The notes under the pieces: model-generated | The model's database searches: none | What the model saw: only the letters and a program-made list of their open reading frames with translations | What the model was told of the DNA's origin: nothing | In this document: piece by piece, positions 6,390 to 53,441 of the stretch | Numbering within the stretch: position 1 is the stretch's first letter | Layout: every line of letters begins with the position of its first letter | Assembly (NCBI RefSeq): GCF_001644605.1 | Contig: NZ_CP011388.1 | Coordinates: 4,135,501 to 4,199,500 of the forward strand | Source of the DNA: Paenibacillus swuensis | Lineage (GTDB): Bacteria > Bacillota > Bacilli > Paenibacillales > DY6 | DNA: 64,000 nucleotides | Direction: 5' to 3' | Position numbers and translations under genes: made by a program

Positions 6390-7556
6390 TTAATATTGCT
6401 CCACTTGACTAAGATAGCTATTCAAATTCGCGCGGATTTCTTCAATAGAATCACCACCGAATTTCTCAAGGAACGCCCTGGCAACTTCCCAAGCTACAAC
6501 GTTCTCCAGCACTACGCTTGCGGCAGGCACGGCGCAGCTGTCGGAACGTTCCACTTGAGCCGTAAACGGTTCTTTCGTATCGATATCCACGCTTTGCAAT
6601 GGCTTATATAAGGTAGGAATCGGCTTCATCACACCGCGAACCACAATCGGTTCGCCCGTTGTCATACCGCCTTCGAATCCGCCTGCCCGGTTCGATGCCC
6701 GATGATATCCTCGTTCTGCTGTGTACAAGATTTCATCGTGCACCTGGGAGCCCCGCAATTCGGCCGCTTCAAAACCAAGACCGATTTCGCAGCCTTTAAA
6801 AGCATTAATAGAAACCACAGCTCCCGCGATACGGGCATCCAACTTGCGGTCCCATTGCACATAACTTCCTAAACCTACAGGTACGCCTTCAATAATACAT
6901 TCCACAATTCCGCCAATCGAATCGCCTTCAGCTTTCATCTGATCAATATGCGCAATCATTAGTGCTTCAGCTTCCTTATCCACCACACGCACGGGGGACG
7001 CTTCCGTCGCTTGAATAAGCTCATCGATCGGCAGTTCCGTCCTCTTCGCTTGGACTTCGCCGATTCGCAACACCTGACCGGCTACTTTAATGCCGAATTC
7101 AGCCAGAAGCTGGCGCGCAACCGCTCCGCAAGCTACCCTTGCCGCGGTTTCCCGAGCGCTCGAGCGTTCCAGTACGTTACGTAAATCTTTCAGATTATAT
7201 TTCAAACCGCCGTTCAAATCCGCATGACCGGGTCTCGGACGGTGAACTCTGCGCTTCTCTTCATCTGAACCTTCGATCGGTTCAATATTCATCACGGTTG
7301 TCCAGTGCTTCCAATCGTTGTTAGCCACAATCAGGGCTACCGGCGCCCCTGTCGTACGACCGTGTCTTACGCCGCCCACGATGTCCGCGGTATCCTTCTC
7401 AATCTGCATTCTGCGGCCCCGGCCATAACCGAGTTGTCTGCGGTGTAGTTGAAAATTCAACTCCTCGAAATCCACTCTCATATTACTTGGCAAACCTTCA
7501 ATAATTGCTGTTAATTGCGGACCGTGTGTTTCTCCTGCCGTTAAATATCTCAACAT
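6390..7556 (-). CDS. aroC: Chorismate synthase
   Basis: Last shikimate step: FMN-dependent elimination of phosphate from EPSP to chorismate. It is 388 residues. The N-terminal signature [13 protein letters not shown] carries the catalytic histidine. Other family segments are [35 protein letters not shown] and [16 protein letters not shown]. The product feeds trpE, aroH and mqnA in this same cluster. It is the first gene of the aroC-aroB-aroH unit and has its own promoter. Confidence 0.98.
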
Positions 7557-7588: not shown

Positions 7589-7618
7589 ATTATAGTATAG
7601 TTCCGTTTGATTTGACAA
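7589..7618 (-). promoter_or_regulatory. Promoter of aroC
   Basis: TTGTCA (7613-7618), an 18-base spacer and a perfect TATAAT (7589-7594), 33 bases before the aroC start. It is preceded by a terminator, so the aro-trp block starts a new transcript here. Confidence 0.75.
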
Positions 7619-7696: not shown

Positions 7697-7726
7697 AAAA
7701 AATACACCGGAGACAAGTTCCGGTGC
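7697..7726 (-). terminator. Terminator after the small gene behind cheR
   Basis: Stem CACCGGA/TCCGGTG with a 7-base loop, then UAUUUUUU in the RNA sense. It separates the small gene from the aroC promoter. Confidence 0.85.
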
Positions 7727-7734
7727 ATTGGCAT

Positions 7735-7899
7735 TTAAGTGTTTACCGGCAGCTTGCGGGTCGAAGTTTCTTCCGGCTGAAGCTTGGGATCATTGACCAA
7801 ACCTAGCATCTGCGCCGTATCGACACCCAGAATTTGCGAGCATTCCTGTATTGTTATAAACCCCCGCCGGTAGGCGGCTATTACTTTTCGTTTATCCAC
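7735..7899 (-). CDS. Small protein of 54 residues, unknown function, forespore-type promoter
   Basis: The reading frame is open from 7971, but a strong GGAGG lies 10 bases before a GTG at 7899. The only good promoter lies between 7971 and 7899, so I take the GTG as the start. The protein starts VDKRKVIAAYRRGFITIQEC and continues SQILGVDTAQMLGLV. This looks like a small helix-turn-helix or helical hairpin, followed by a polar tail. I do not recognise a family. It ends at its own terminator. A perfect sigma-G-like promoter suggests production in the developing spore, unlike the neighbouring cheR. The long reading from 7971 has no ribosome site. Confidence 0.65.
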   Translation of the reverse strand: MDKRKVIAAYRRGFITIQECSQILGVDTAQMLGLVNDPKLQPEETSTRKLPVNT

Positions 7900-7936
7900 T
7901 TCGGTTAAACCTCCAGGCCATCGTAGTATGTGCCCA

Positions 7937-7966
7937 TAGTATGGGTAACACTGGAAACGACTATAC
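7937..7966 (-). promoter_or_regulatory. Sigma-G/sigma-F-like promoter before the 54-residue gene
   Basis: GTATA (7962-7966), an 18-base spacer and CATACTA (7937-7943) match the forespore consensus GHATR-N18-CATNHTA fully. The -10 lies within the palindrome CCCATACTATGGG, and a second CATACTA copy follows at 7924-7930. Confidence 0.65.
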
Positions 7967-7974
7967 GCCATAGG

Positions 7975-8751
7975 CTACATTTTGCGATAAAAAAAAGTAT
8001 CCGCCGACTCTAACCCGTATTGCGCAGGTGTGAAGATCTGCTCCGTGCTGCCGACAAATAGAATACCGCCAGGCTTAAGCGCCTCTGCAAATTTATGATA
8101 GAGCAGGTTCTTCGCCTCTTCCGTAAAATAAATCATCACATTTCGACAAATAATCAGGTCAAAATTACGGTCGAACGGATCCGTCAGTAAATTTCCCTTC
8201 TGAAATTGTACCGCCTTCTTCAGTTCATTCGAAACTTGGTACATCTGGCCCTCTTCGCTAAAATAGGTTTTTACGTATTCCGCAGGCACATCGCGTAACG
8301 ATCTGTCCAGATAGCGTCCCGCCTTCGCCTTTTCCAAGGCGTTATCGTCCAGGTCCGTCGCCAACAAGTGTGCTTGAGCGAGCCATTGTCGTTTCGCCAA
8401 TATCATAGCAAGCGAATAAGGTTCTTCTCCTGTAGAGCAGGCCGCGCTCCAGCATTTCAATTTGGCATTTTCTTTGACCATTTCAGGAAGAAACCGTTGC
8501 TGCAGTATTTCCCATCGATTGGGATTGCGCCAAAATTCCGATACATTAATCGTCATTCGATCCAAAAATTCGTGCATGAGCTTCTTGTCTTTCATGATCG
8601 CTTCATAAAAAGAAGCAAAGGTGTCATACCCGTTCTTCATTCTTAATGTCGTCAACCGTCTCTTCATCTGTGCTTCTTTATATTGTGAAAGATCGATCGT
8701 GGTGCTTTCCTTCACTTTACGCACGAAGAAGAGGAAATCCTGATCTTCCAT
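7975..8751 (-). CDS. cheR: Chemotaxis protein methyltransferase
   Basis: Transfers methyl groups from S-adenosylmethionine to glutamates of chemoreceptors for adaptation. It is 258 residues. The N-terminal helical domain is followed by the SAM-binding domain with CWSAACSTGEEPYSLAMIL near residue 100, LLATDLDDNALEKA and FDLIICRNVMIYF, all typical of CheR. The end, GGILFVGSTEQIF, also fits. It lies between ndk and the aro genes as in B. subtilis. A GGGGG site precedes the ATG. Confidence 0.96.
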   Translation of the reverse strand: MEDQDFLFFVRKVKESTTIDLSQYKEAQMKRRLTTLRMKNGYDTFASFYEAIMKDKKLMHEFLDRMTINVSEFWRNPNRWEILQQRFLPEMVKENAKLKCWSAACSTGEEPYSLAMILAKRQWLAQAHLLATDLDDNALEKAKAGRYLDRSLRDVPAEYVKTYFSEEGQMYQVSNELKKAVQFQKGNLLTDPFDRNFDLIICRNVMIYFTEEAKNLLYHKFAEALKPGGILFVGSTEQIFTPAQYGLESADTFFYRKM

Positions 8752-16606: not shown

Positions 16607-18085
16607 TTACAGAATAATGGCGATCAAACCGCCGGAGCCTTCATTGATAATACGACCCAACGTCTCCTGAAGTTTATAACGCGCGTTGTCCGGCATAAGG
16701 GCGATTTTGCCTTGGATGCCCTCCCGAACGATGGAGTGCAGCGAGCGTCCGAAGATGTCGGATTCCCAAATCTTGATCGGATCATTCTCGAAGTCCTGCA
16801 TCAGATAGCGCACTAACTCTTCACTTTGCTTCTCGGTTCCGATAATCGGCGCGAACTCCGACTCCACATCAACGCGTATCATGTGAATGGAAGGCGCTGT
16901 GGCCTTCAGCCGCACACCGAACCGGGATCCTTGACGAATCAGTTCCGGCTCGTCTAGAGCCATTTCAGCAAGCGAAGGAGCAGCGATTCCGTAGCCGGTC
17001 GTCTTGACCATCTCCAACGCCTCTGCGAAGCGGTCGTATTCGCGCTTCGCGTGACTGAATTCCTGCATGAGCTGCAGCAGGTGATCTTTGCCGCGAATTT
17101 CAACGCCAACGACTTCCATTAGAATTTGGTCGTAAAGTTCGTCCGGCGCGTACAGGTCGATTTCAGCGACGCCCTGGCCCATGTTCATGCCGCTCAAGCC
17201 GGCTCGTGAAATAAATTCATATTCCGCGAACTGCTCGACGACATGATCCACATCACGCAGACGGCGAATATCTTTCACCGTATCACGTACTGAATCTTCA
17301 AAGTGTGTGCGCAGCCAGTGATTCTCATCCAGCACCATCACCCAGCTAGGCAGATTCACATTGACTTCATGTACCGGGAACTCGTAAAGCACCTCGCGCA
17401 GTACGGATAACCCTTCTTCCTCCGTCATTTGCGCCGCGCTCATCGTCATAACCGGAATATCGTATTTCTCCGCAAGCTCGTTACGTAATTGCAGCGCTTC
17501 TTCGCTGCGAGGTTTGGTAGAGTTGATAATGAGTACGAACGGTTTGCCGACTTCCTTCAACTCGGCAATGACCCTCTCCTCGGATTCAACGTAAGAGTAC
17601 CGAGGAATTTCCGCAATAGTCCCGTCCGTTGTAACGACTACACCCAATGTGGAGTGTTCTTGAATGACTTTGCGCGTGCCGATTTCAGCAGCTTCTTGAA
17701 ACGGAATCGCCTCGTCGAACCACGGCGTGGATATCATCCGGGGACCATTCTCGTCTTCGTACCCTTTAGCGCCATCTACAGCATAACCAACACAATCCAC
17801 AAGGCGCACATTCACTTCCAAGCCTTCAGCTACACGGATTTGCACCGCATTGTTCGGAACGAATTTCGGCTCCGTTGTCATAATCGTACGGCCTGCGGCA
17901 CTTTGCGGAAGCTCGTCGATGGCTCTTACCCGATCCGCCTCGCTTTGTATGCTGGGCAGAACGACCGTTTCCATGAATCTTTTGATAAAGGTCGATTTCC
18001 CTGTACGCACGGCGCCGACGACTCCCAGATATATATCCCCACCAGTGCGTTCTGCGATGTCCTTAAAAATATCCACTTTTTCCAA
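16607..18085 (-). CDS. spoIVA: Stage IV sporulation protein A, spore coat morphogenetic ATPase
   Basis: 492 residues, the family length. SpoIVA polymerises with ATP hydrolysis on the outer forespore membrane to form the coat basement layer. The N-terminus MEKVDIFKDIAERTGGDIYL is nearly invariant; the Walker A loop GAVRTGKST is near residue 24, and VDCVGYAVDGAKGYEDENG gives the Walker B region. The start is TTG at 18085 with GGAGGG upstream. It is preceded by a sigma-E-type promoter and ends at its own terminator, so it is a single-gene unit. Confidence 0.98.
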   Translation of the reverse strand: MEKVDIFKDIAERTGGDIYLGVVGAVRTGKSTFIKRFMETVVLPSIQSEADRVRAIDELPQSAAGRTIMTTEPKFVPNNAVQIRVAEGLEVNVRLVDCVGYAVDGAKGYEDENGPRMISTPWFDEAIPFQEAAEIGTRKVIQEHSTLGVVVTTDGTIAEIPRYSYVESEERVIAELKEVGKPFVLIINSTKPRSEEALQLRNELAEKYDIPVMTMSAAQMTEEEGLSVLREVLYEFPVHEVNVNLPSWVMVLDENHWLRTHFEDSVRDTVKDIRRLRDVDHVVEQFAEYEFISRAGLSGMNMGQGVAEIDLYAPDELYDQILMEVVGVEIRGKDHLLQLMQEFSHAKREYDRFAEALEMVKTTGYGIAAPSLAEMALDEPELIRQGSRFGVRLKATAPSIHMIRVDVESEFAPIIGTEKQSEELVRYLMQDFENDPIKIWESDIFGRSLHSIVREGIQGKIALMPDNARYKLQETLGRIINEGSGGLIAIIL

Positions 18086-29961: not shown

Positions 29962-31317
29962 CTATTCGGTTACATCGATATCCTTATCCGAAATTAAATC
30001 AACCTTCTCTTCGTTCCCGCTGTCGGCATTAATATAAATCCGATAAGTGTGTCCGTTAATCCGACCGGTAAATTCGTAAGTCAACACTTCCTGATCCAGT
30101 TCATTTTCAATTAAGGCCAGATCCGTGTTACTTACTTTAAAGTCACGGTTTAAAGCTTTACGGGCTTCACTTTCTGAAATGTTGGCTTTAGGGAGCTTCC
30201 GTTCCTTATGATTGTAAATGTAATCTGTTGCTTGCAATCCCATAATTTCACCATTATCCATAGCTGTCATAACAGACAGTTTCTCGGGGAAAAGGAGTAC
30301 TTTTCCTTGCTTACCGACAAACGTGAAATGGGCTACATTATCGTAAATATCGTAGGATACGGGCACCATTTCCTTATATTCGTGCTTCTTCAGAAAGGCT
30401 GCGGAAGCATCCACGGCTTGATCCATTGTCAGGTTCTTCTTATTAACTTCACGGGTGTTCATGAAATATACAAGATGTCCGCCTTTCTTGGTAAAATCCG
30501 CCTGAAGTCGATGGCCGCCTTGCGGATTCGTGGCTGAGACGCTGTAAGAGCTGTATTCCGTACCGTTACCGTTCTCCACAACCTTGAGTTCCGCATTGTT
30601 CGTTAACCCGAAGTATTTGCGTGCCTTGGCTTTAACCGCATCACCGCTGATCTGTTTACCGCCTAAAGCGCTTAAAGTGCGTTTATTATCAATTCCGGCA
30701 GCCGTAGGTCCCCAATTGATTTCATCATATTCGCTGACTTTCTTATCTACCGTTTTGAAGCCGTCGATAATCGTATTGTCATATGTAGTATCCTCTGTAG
30801 CCAGCGCAAGCTCGACGTCCATCCACCTTAAATTATCCTGTATGGTCTTCGTCTGTACCGTGCGCAGTTCCTTGGAAATATCCTCAGACCTTGCGTATAA
30901 GGTCTTCAGGGTTTTGTATTCACCCTCGGATAGCGGTTCTTTGGTAAGGTCCCTGACAGCCGTACGATATGAGAAATTAGCAATGTTCGCTAAAAACTCC
31001 TCTGTTTTATTAAAAGGTAATAAGCTTAGCGGCAATTGATTAATTTCACTTTGGGCTTGAGAGGTAATTCTCCAGGCATTGACTAAGCCCTTGCGCTGAA
31101 ACCCCTGAGAACTTGGATTGACGGCAAGCGTATTGCCAAGCTCGGTGTGGAGCTTATCTACATGGTAGGATAGATCGTGGAAGGCTCTCTGATACTGATT
31201 CTCGGCCTTAATTAAAATGGAGTTCTTCTCTTGATTTTCATTATAGCCCCATAGGACTGCCCCGATCAACAGAACGGCTAATACAGGAAACATAACAGCG
31301 CTCAATCTCTTATACAT
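29962..31317 (-). CDS. ypeB: Germination protein YpeB
   Basis: 451 residues. The N-terminus has one membrane segment (VMFPVLAVLLIGAVLWGY), followed by a long helical region to about residue 200 and three PepSY-like repeats in the C-terminal half. YpeB is made in the forespore and is needed to keep the cortex-lytic enzyme SleB stable. In B. subtilis sleB is the gene just upstream; here a 52-codon gene and prsW are there instead. GAAGGGAG precedes the ATG and a sigma-G-like promoter lies at 31349-31378. Confidence 0.95.
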   Translation of the reverse strand: MYKRLSAVMFPVLAVLLIGAVLWGYNENQEKNSILIKAENQYQRAFHDLSYHVDKLHTELGNTLAVNPSSQGFQRKGLVNAWRITSQAQSEINQLPLSLLPFNKTEEFLANIANFSYRTAVRDLTKEPLSEGEYKTLKTLYARSEDISKELRTVQTKTIQDNLRWMDVELALATEDTTYDNTIIDGFKTVDKKVSEYDEINWGPTAAGIDNKRTLSALGGKQISGDAVKAKARKYFGLTNNAELKVVENGNGTEYSSYSVSATNPQGGHRLQADFTKKGGHLVYFMNTREVNKKNLTMDQAVDASAAFLKKHEYKEMVPVSYDIYDNVAHFTFVGKQGKVLLFPEKLSVMTAMDNGEIMGLQATDYIYNHKERKLPKANISESEARKALNRDFKVSNTDLALIENELDQEVLTYEFTGRINGHTYRIYINADSGNEEKVDLISDKDIDVTE

Positions 31318-31348: not shown

Positions 31349-31378
31349 TAGTTTGCTTAGCAGAAAGGAGAATTATGC
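31349..31378 (-). promoter_or_regulatory. Sigma-G-like promoter of ypeB
   Basis: GCATA (31374-31378), 18 bases, CAAACTA (31349-31355): one mismatch from the forespore consensus GHATR-N18-CATNHTA, 31 bases before the ATG. Confidence 0.6.
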
Positions 31379-52909: not shown

Positions 52910-53362
52910 TTAAACAATAATGTTTGTTGTGTTTCCTTCGTCAGTCGTATCCGAGTTGTTACCGGTATTTCCCTTCATCATCCCTTGAATCTTCTCCACT
53001 ACACTTGGAGCCGAATCAATAAGCCGTTCCAGGATGTGCGTCTGGTTATCCAACGATACGACTTTAATGCCGGTTGGCCCTACAACCAGGAAAGCAATCG
53101 GGGTAATGGATATCCCGCCGCCGCTGCCGCCGCCGAACGGCATAGCTACCTTGGCATGATCATGCAGACCATGACCGTGACCTTCTTCCGCAGCAAATTC
53201 ACTACCGCCGGCAGCGAAACCAAAGCCCACTTTACTAATAGGCAAAATCACAGTTCCGTCCACCGTTTCAACCGGATCCCCGACAATTGTATTTACGTCC
53301 ACCATATCTTTAATATTTTCCATTGCGGTTTGCATCAAGCCTTGTATCGGATGTTCTGTCAT
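52910..53362 (-). CDS. ytfJ: Sporulation protein YtfJ (GerW family)
   Basis: 150 residues from an ATG at 53362 with GGAGG 10 bases upstream. HPIQGLMQTAMENIKDMVDV opens the protein. VGDPVETVDGTVILPISKVG follows, and the glycine-rich GGGSGGGISITPIAFLVVG lies in the middle: all typical of the GerW/YtfJ family. It is a forespore protein linked to germination. The last 30 residues are a polar, asparagine/threonine-rich tail. A perfect sigma-G-like promoter is upstream. In B. subtilis ytfI and ytfJ are adjacent; here a plus-strand gene separates them. Confidence 0.93.
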   Translation of the reverse strand: MTEHPIQGLMQTAMENIKDMVDVNTIVGDPVETVDGTVILPISKVGFGFAAGGSEFAAEEGHGHGLHDHAKVAMPFGGGSGGGISITPIAFLVVGPTGIKVVSLDNQTHILERLIDSAPSVVEKIQGMMKGNTGNNSDTTDEGNTTNIIV

Positions 53363-53411
53363 GTCATGTAATCCTCCTTGGAATGGGTTTGTGAAGCATG
53401 GCAAGTACTTA

Positions 53412-53441
53412 TAGTATGAGCCAACAAGGTATGACCTATGC
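53412..53441 (-). promoter_or_regulatory. Sigma-G-like promoter of ytfJ
   Basis: GCATA (53437-53441), 18 bases, CATACTA (53412-53418): full match to GHATR-N18-CATNHTA, 50 bases before the start codon. Confidence 0.7.

Follow-up and report, generated by a model that had tools for sequence, protein, structure and literature searches.

Between cheR and aroC of Paenibacillus swuensis lies a 54-codon reading frame, here called gene X, which the original prediction had described as a complete small transcription unit with a forespore promoter. The question that the locus raises is whether X is a real gene, whether it is read in the forespore, and what its product might do there. The window, by which we mean the whole stretch of 64,000 nucleotides that was analysed, does hold a GTG-started gene of that length on the minus strand between the two neighbours, and GTATA-N18-CATACTA, GGAGG and GTG follow one another upstream of it as predicted. 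Listed in the direction of transcription, the features of the locus are these:

7975..8751, minus strand: cheR, the upstream neighbour of X (product matches CheR)
7962..7966, minus strand: -35 element GTATA
7944..7956, minus strand: conserved spacer region, with TTCCA at 7952-7956 and CC at 7944-7945, abutting the -10 element
7937..7943, minus strand: -10 element CATACTA, in which ATACT is conserved and the first base is free
7910..7914, minus strand: GGAGG ribosome-binding site of X, 10 nt before GTG
7735..7899, minus strand: gene X, 54 codons, GTG start (codon at 7897-7899) and stop at 7735, encoding the conserved small HTH-like protein VDKRKVIAAYRRGFITIQECSQILGVDTAQMLGLVNDPKLQPEETSTRKLPVNT
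7701..7729, minus strand: intrinsic terminator 3' of X, an 11-pair stem and then a T run, common to the upstream cheR transcript
7589..7618, minus strand: sigma-A type promoter of aroC, TTGTCA-N18-TATAAT (11/12 consensus matches), separate from X
6390..7556, minus strand: aroC, chorismate synthase, the downstream neighbour of X (product matches chorismate synthase)

Other sporulation genes within the window are spoIVA (16607-18085), ypeB (29962-31317) and ytfJ (52910-53391).

The frame of X stays open further upstream to an ATG at 7971, which would give a 78-aa form whose extension overlaps the promoter. This longer form is excluded, as the extension is not conserved; conservation among relatives begins exactly at the GTG or ATG of the short form, and because of this the GTG start is taken as correct. 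Pooled over 89 close pairs, pN/pS of X is 0.105, and comparison with relatives in the order gives pN of 0.11-0.22 with pS of at least 0.69, while an alignment of 63 diverse sequences shows K3, A9, Y10, G13, C20 and G25 to be invariant. X is under purifying selection, and both the gene and its start are real.

Promoter and transcription of X

Evaluating the upstream regions of 145 distinct homologues revealed GHATR-N18-NATACT within 140 nt upstream in 114 of them (110/126 in the order and 4/19 outside it). Markov-randomised upstream sequences held the motif in a mean of 0.12 of 145 (maximum 1), and the adjacent stretch from -260 to -140 held it in 0/144 homologues, such that the forespore-type promoter claimed for X is borne out. 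The spacer in X promoters is always 18 nt long, and the -35 element among 110 scored X promoters is GTATA in 87 and GAATA in 20. The sigma-G/sigma-F consensus pairs a GHATR -35 with a CATWHTA-like -10 at a distance of 17-18 nt; its strict form, GHATR-N17/18-CATWHTA, is matched exactly at X in the window but is rare at X homologues (26/145) because the first -10 base varies in X promoters. In two families beyond the order (f32 and f37, loci L177-L190), the -35 GTATA is kept and the -10 is like CAAAAATA after TTCC, differing from the window's order.

Searched across the genome, GHATR-N17/18-CATACTA gave 15 matches against 10 for a reversed control pattern, and the count within the window at up to 3 mismatches was 39 against 32.6, near chance. 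Taken alone within the window, the motif is weak evidence; what makes it significant at X is its conservation upstream of homologues, which also rules out a chance promoter match there. The 15 genome matches nevertheless include gpr, sleB and ytfJ, forespore genes established from B. subtilis, as well as a spore germination permease, so that in the P. swuensis genome the consensus does pick out genes of the forespore. The prediction had also named ytfJ and ypeB as carrying promoters of the same type, which stood for ytfJ (an exact GCATA-N18-CATACTA at 53412-53441) but not fully for ypeB, whose gene identity was confirmed and whose site, GCATA-N18-CAAACTA at 31349-31378, does not keep to the -10 consensus. 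A chance frame behind a chance promoter match could draw on the near-chance frequency of the motif alone across the genome, but frame, start and promoter are conserved across hundreds of genomes, which already refutes this explanation and leaves it with virtually no probability. That X is a conserved gene with a forespore-type promoter we state, as a claim by itself, with high confidence.

The X promoter is also a variant of its kind. It has GHATR-N17/18-CATACTA in common with known sigma-G/sigma-F forespore genes (gpr, sleB, ytfJ/gerW and the SASP genes), with gpr, sleB and ytfJ matching exactly here, but differs from them in its additional TTCCA and CC, its unvarying N18 and its acceptance of any first -10 base. 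CC stands directly before the -10 in 91/110 X promoters versus 2/25 spoIIR and 0/8 SASP promoters scored, the SASP side of this comparison being weak as the pattern gave a scorable promoter at 8/29 loci. TTCCA is conserved mid-spacer in X promoters, and neither it nor CC is typical of the spoIIR and SASP promoters of the same genomes. Within the window, the motif extended by TTCCA and CC occurs at the X site alone.

The promoters of spoIIR, the paradigm of sigma-F control, in the same order (L257-L286) are very uniform, with a GTTTA -35 and a CATACTG/A -10, and make a usable sigma-F reference for the order. Among 25 scored, 22 have GTTTA, often with GG or GA before CATACTG. The criterion for a sigma-F subset was a GYWTA -35 and a GG ahead of the -10, spoIIR being the example. 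Set against it, X promoters have GTATA or GAATA with CC, whereas spoIIR has mostly GTTTA, often with GG or GA, and this favours sigma-G; GAATA also fits the sigma-G consensus better. Because sigma-F transcribes csfB of B. subtilis from a promoter with a GTATA -35 (PMC4383634) and an overlap of the sigma-F and sigma-G regulons has been proposed in C. difficile (PMC7438776), sigma-G is held likelier than sigma-F for X, not proven. Both the forespore expression of X and the identity of its sigma factor are inferred.

One part of the proposed transcription unit did not survive the comparison, namely that X would be an isolated unit with a terminator of its own. Across 129 loci the interval from cheR to X yielded no terminator, and one stands 3' of X in 113 of the 129, so the terminator is shared with cheR, whose transcripts can run into X. 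Because no terminator separates the two genes, X is probably also read with cheR in vegetative cells, with the forespore-type promoter adding to this read-through; no sigma-A-like promoter was found in front of X.

Distribution and relation to sporulation

Homologues of X, in single copy, were found by protein search in 42/60 relatives and in 175/246 genomes of the order (one copy each), with named hosts that are mostly Paenibacillus species. Beyond the order, X is present in the class Bacilli families f17, f30, f32, f33, f34 and f37. Outside the class, two marginal matches among 249 genomes of the phylum (E ~5e-4), both without cheR and aroC, look chance-like and were rejected as members. Relatives retain both the promoter and the frame.

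The surroundings of X are largely constant, with cheR upstream and aroC downstream in 75/80 named loci. Families outside the Paenibacillales keep this arrangement, in most cases together with ndk and aroB. The five exceptions are three short contig ends, one locus without aroC alone, and one (L070) without either neighbour, such that the expectation that homologues always follow cheR holds nearly always but not at L070. This last is a short MAG contig with X and its promoter that adjoins neither cheR nor aroC, a possible relocation or misassembly. Where X is absent, the space between cheR and aroC contains no X-like ORF; by eye, it holds a terminator-like element and the aroC promoter. Two genomes from f24, a further Bacilli family, have a gap of 78-83 nt, leaving X no room, and in one small X-less genome it measures 37 nt.

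To connect these distributions to sporulation, we evaluated a class sample of 348 genomes, 236 of them SpoIVA-positive and 112 SpoIVA-negative. All 53 X carriers (53/53) have SpoIVA and X occurs in 0/112 SpoIVA-negative genomes, though the genomes are phylogenetically non-independent, so no significance is claimed for this co-occurrence. A Fisher value for the order was set aside, since SpoIVA had been scored in part of its genomes. Absence of X from non-sporulating relatives, another expectation, agrees with the sampled SpoIVA-lacking genomes, including those of genus g18 (family f10), where 12/12 tested genomes are without SpoIVA and without X. The absence of SpoIVA from the tested genomes of this genus (4-6 Mb; G021, G068, G106, G114 and others) suggests a non-sporulating genus nested among sporulators.

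The reverse does not hold. Because X is missing from 183/236 SpoIVA-positive genomes of the class sample, it cannot be counted among the core sporulation genes, and it is likewise missing from the greater part of genus g15 and from several others, though these are sporulating Paenibacillaceae. The idea that X is tied to sporulating Paenibacillaceae thus stands for relatives without SpoIVA, which are without X, but not for g15 and those others. X is lineage-restricted, repeatedly lost and not generally essential to sporulation.

The open-access papers searched gave no description of X, which probably represents a spore-development gene not described before. X constitutes a new protein family in a system of known kind, the forespore regulon, with a variant promoter, and although nameless in Pfam and NCBIfam it is present in most sampled Paenibacillales and in several other Bacilli families. 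What is known of sporulation comes mainly from Bacillus subtilis, and X is a candidate for a forespore function that this model organism would be without.

Predicted product and possible roles

AlphaFold modelling with 63 sequences gave helices at residues 3-12, 17-24 and 28-35, with a mean pLDDT of ~90 over residues 1-30 and a low-confidence tail, and so predicts a single three-helix HTH; the generic HTH fold is a three-helix core in which helices 2 and 3 stand in HTH arrangement. The top structural matches are nearly all to DNA-binding or sigma-4 HTH domains (DeoR, sigma region 4, PhyR, GerE), with Z of 3.6-4.7 (all <5), and a Foldseek search with the X model returned nothing significant (E >0.5); a specific fold assignment was rejected, as the matches are those of a generic HTH and none is significant. 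X is thus modelled as a stand-alone HTH of ~54 residues with an unstructured tail, in keeping with the earlier expectation of a small, helical product that might bind DNA or protein.

The same prediction had recognised no family, and the searches concur, with no model above cut-off for X in Pfam, NCBIfam or PHROGs and assignment to a known family rejected on that ground. Weak similarity over the HTH core was seen to HTH_28 (PF13518; 29/63 members, best 2e-4), where the window protein is unmatched and no match reaches the gathering cut-off, and to UPF0175 (PF03683; 46/63 members, best 1.9e-5), where the window protein reaches 15.2 bits and the cut-off lies at 27.9. A PDB sequence search brought up only the repeat protein 8vd6 (E ~1e-3), with no significant single stretch, and was set aside.

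Several residue patterns bear on function. Helix 1 is basic and hardly varies, and helix 3 has few charges and few basic residues, which is unusual for a DNA-recognition helix. Cys20, the sole conserved cysteine, lies in the HTH core and is invariant in all 145 distinct homologues, at a position usually occupied by I or V in ordinary HTHs. Many C-termini close with short motifs particular to a clade (PVNG/SVNS-like in roughly half the members from the order and VADHL-like in f32), and the median pI of 9.1 in the order versus 6.5 outside it speaks against a simple DNA-coating role.

In the reading we favour, X would be transcribed in the forespore by sigma-G, and possibly also by sigma-F, from its own promoter, with vegetative read-through from cheR probably contributing at some level. 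Its product, a predicted three-helix mini-HTH, would most likely be a small regulator of forespore transcription that either binds DNA itself or acts through contact with RNA polymerase or with a DNA-binding protein; the role in transcription is proposed with less confidence than forespore expression. A proposed role in forespore transcription is also what likens X to SpoVT and RsfA, the B. subtilis forespore transcription regulators, but SpoVT is AbrB-like and RsfA a larger protein, whereas X is a single 54-aa HTH that no NCBIfam or Pfam model matches above cut-off. The whole statement, that X is a developmental gene of basal spore-forming Bacilli, expressed in the forespore through sigma-G or possibly sigma-F and coding for a mini-HTH transcription regulator, we regard as evenly poised. 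Against it stand the SpoIVA-positive genomes without X (183/236), the few basic residues of the predicted helix 3, the free first -10 base with TTCCA and CC atypical of spoIIR and SASP promoters, and structural searches with no significant Foldseek match and Z <5.

In the main rival reading, X is a forespore protein that uses its HTH to bind other proteins. It would be a small anti-sigma factor or adaptor that, like CsfB/Gin or Fin, acts by binding a sigma factor or some other forespore protein; CsfB/Gin and Fin are likewise small and have forespore-type promoters. The weakly charged helix 3, the invariant Cys20 where I or V is usual, structural matches with sigma region 4, PhyR and anti-sigma complexes among them, and clade-specific ends (PVNG, VADHL) that suggest peptide contact all speak for it. 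CsfB/Gin and Fin are, however, zinc-binding proteins with several cysteines, while X has one conserved Cys (C20) and a predicted HTH, lacks the zinc Cys pairs of Gin and so would form no zinc finger of that kind, and shows no similarity to a named anti-sigma family in Pfam or NCBIfam. Even with the GTATA -35 that X has in common with the anti-sigma gene csfB (PMC4383634), we consider this role possible but on balance unlikely. The missing terminator between cheR and X, together with conserved promoter elements atypical of sigma-G/sigma-F, would also suit a vegetative gene of an ndk-cheR operon whose motif is read by another factor, for instance one needing TTCCA-N6-CC; yet carriers are always SpoIVA-positive, the -35, -10 and spacing are the same as at gpr, sleB and ytfJ, and no sigma-A-like promoter was found before X, which makes this improbable. 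The PF03683 matches, below cut-off for the window protein, might instead mark X as an antitoxin-like HTH of UPF0175 type, the remnant of a toxin-antitoxin module, but with cheR and aroC as flanks and no toxin in all families examined, a single copy at a fixed locus and a forespore-type promoter, we see very little chance of this.

Returning to X as a regulator of forespore transcription, a bolder form, which we hold to be doubtful, is that X founds a family of forespore regulators of basal Bacilli. Such a mini-HTH with its obligatory Cys would govern some of the late forespore programme and might sense the thiol/redox state of the maturing spore, and its own promoter would carry a putative TTCCA-N6-CC site for X or a second regulator. 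B. subtilis may lack X and, if this founding role were true, that layer of control as well. The promoter elements conserved with X form a directly testable candidate regulatory site.
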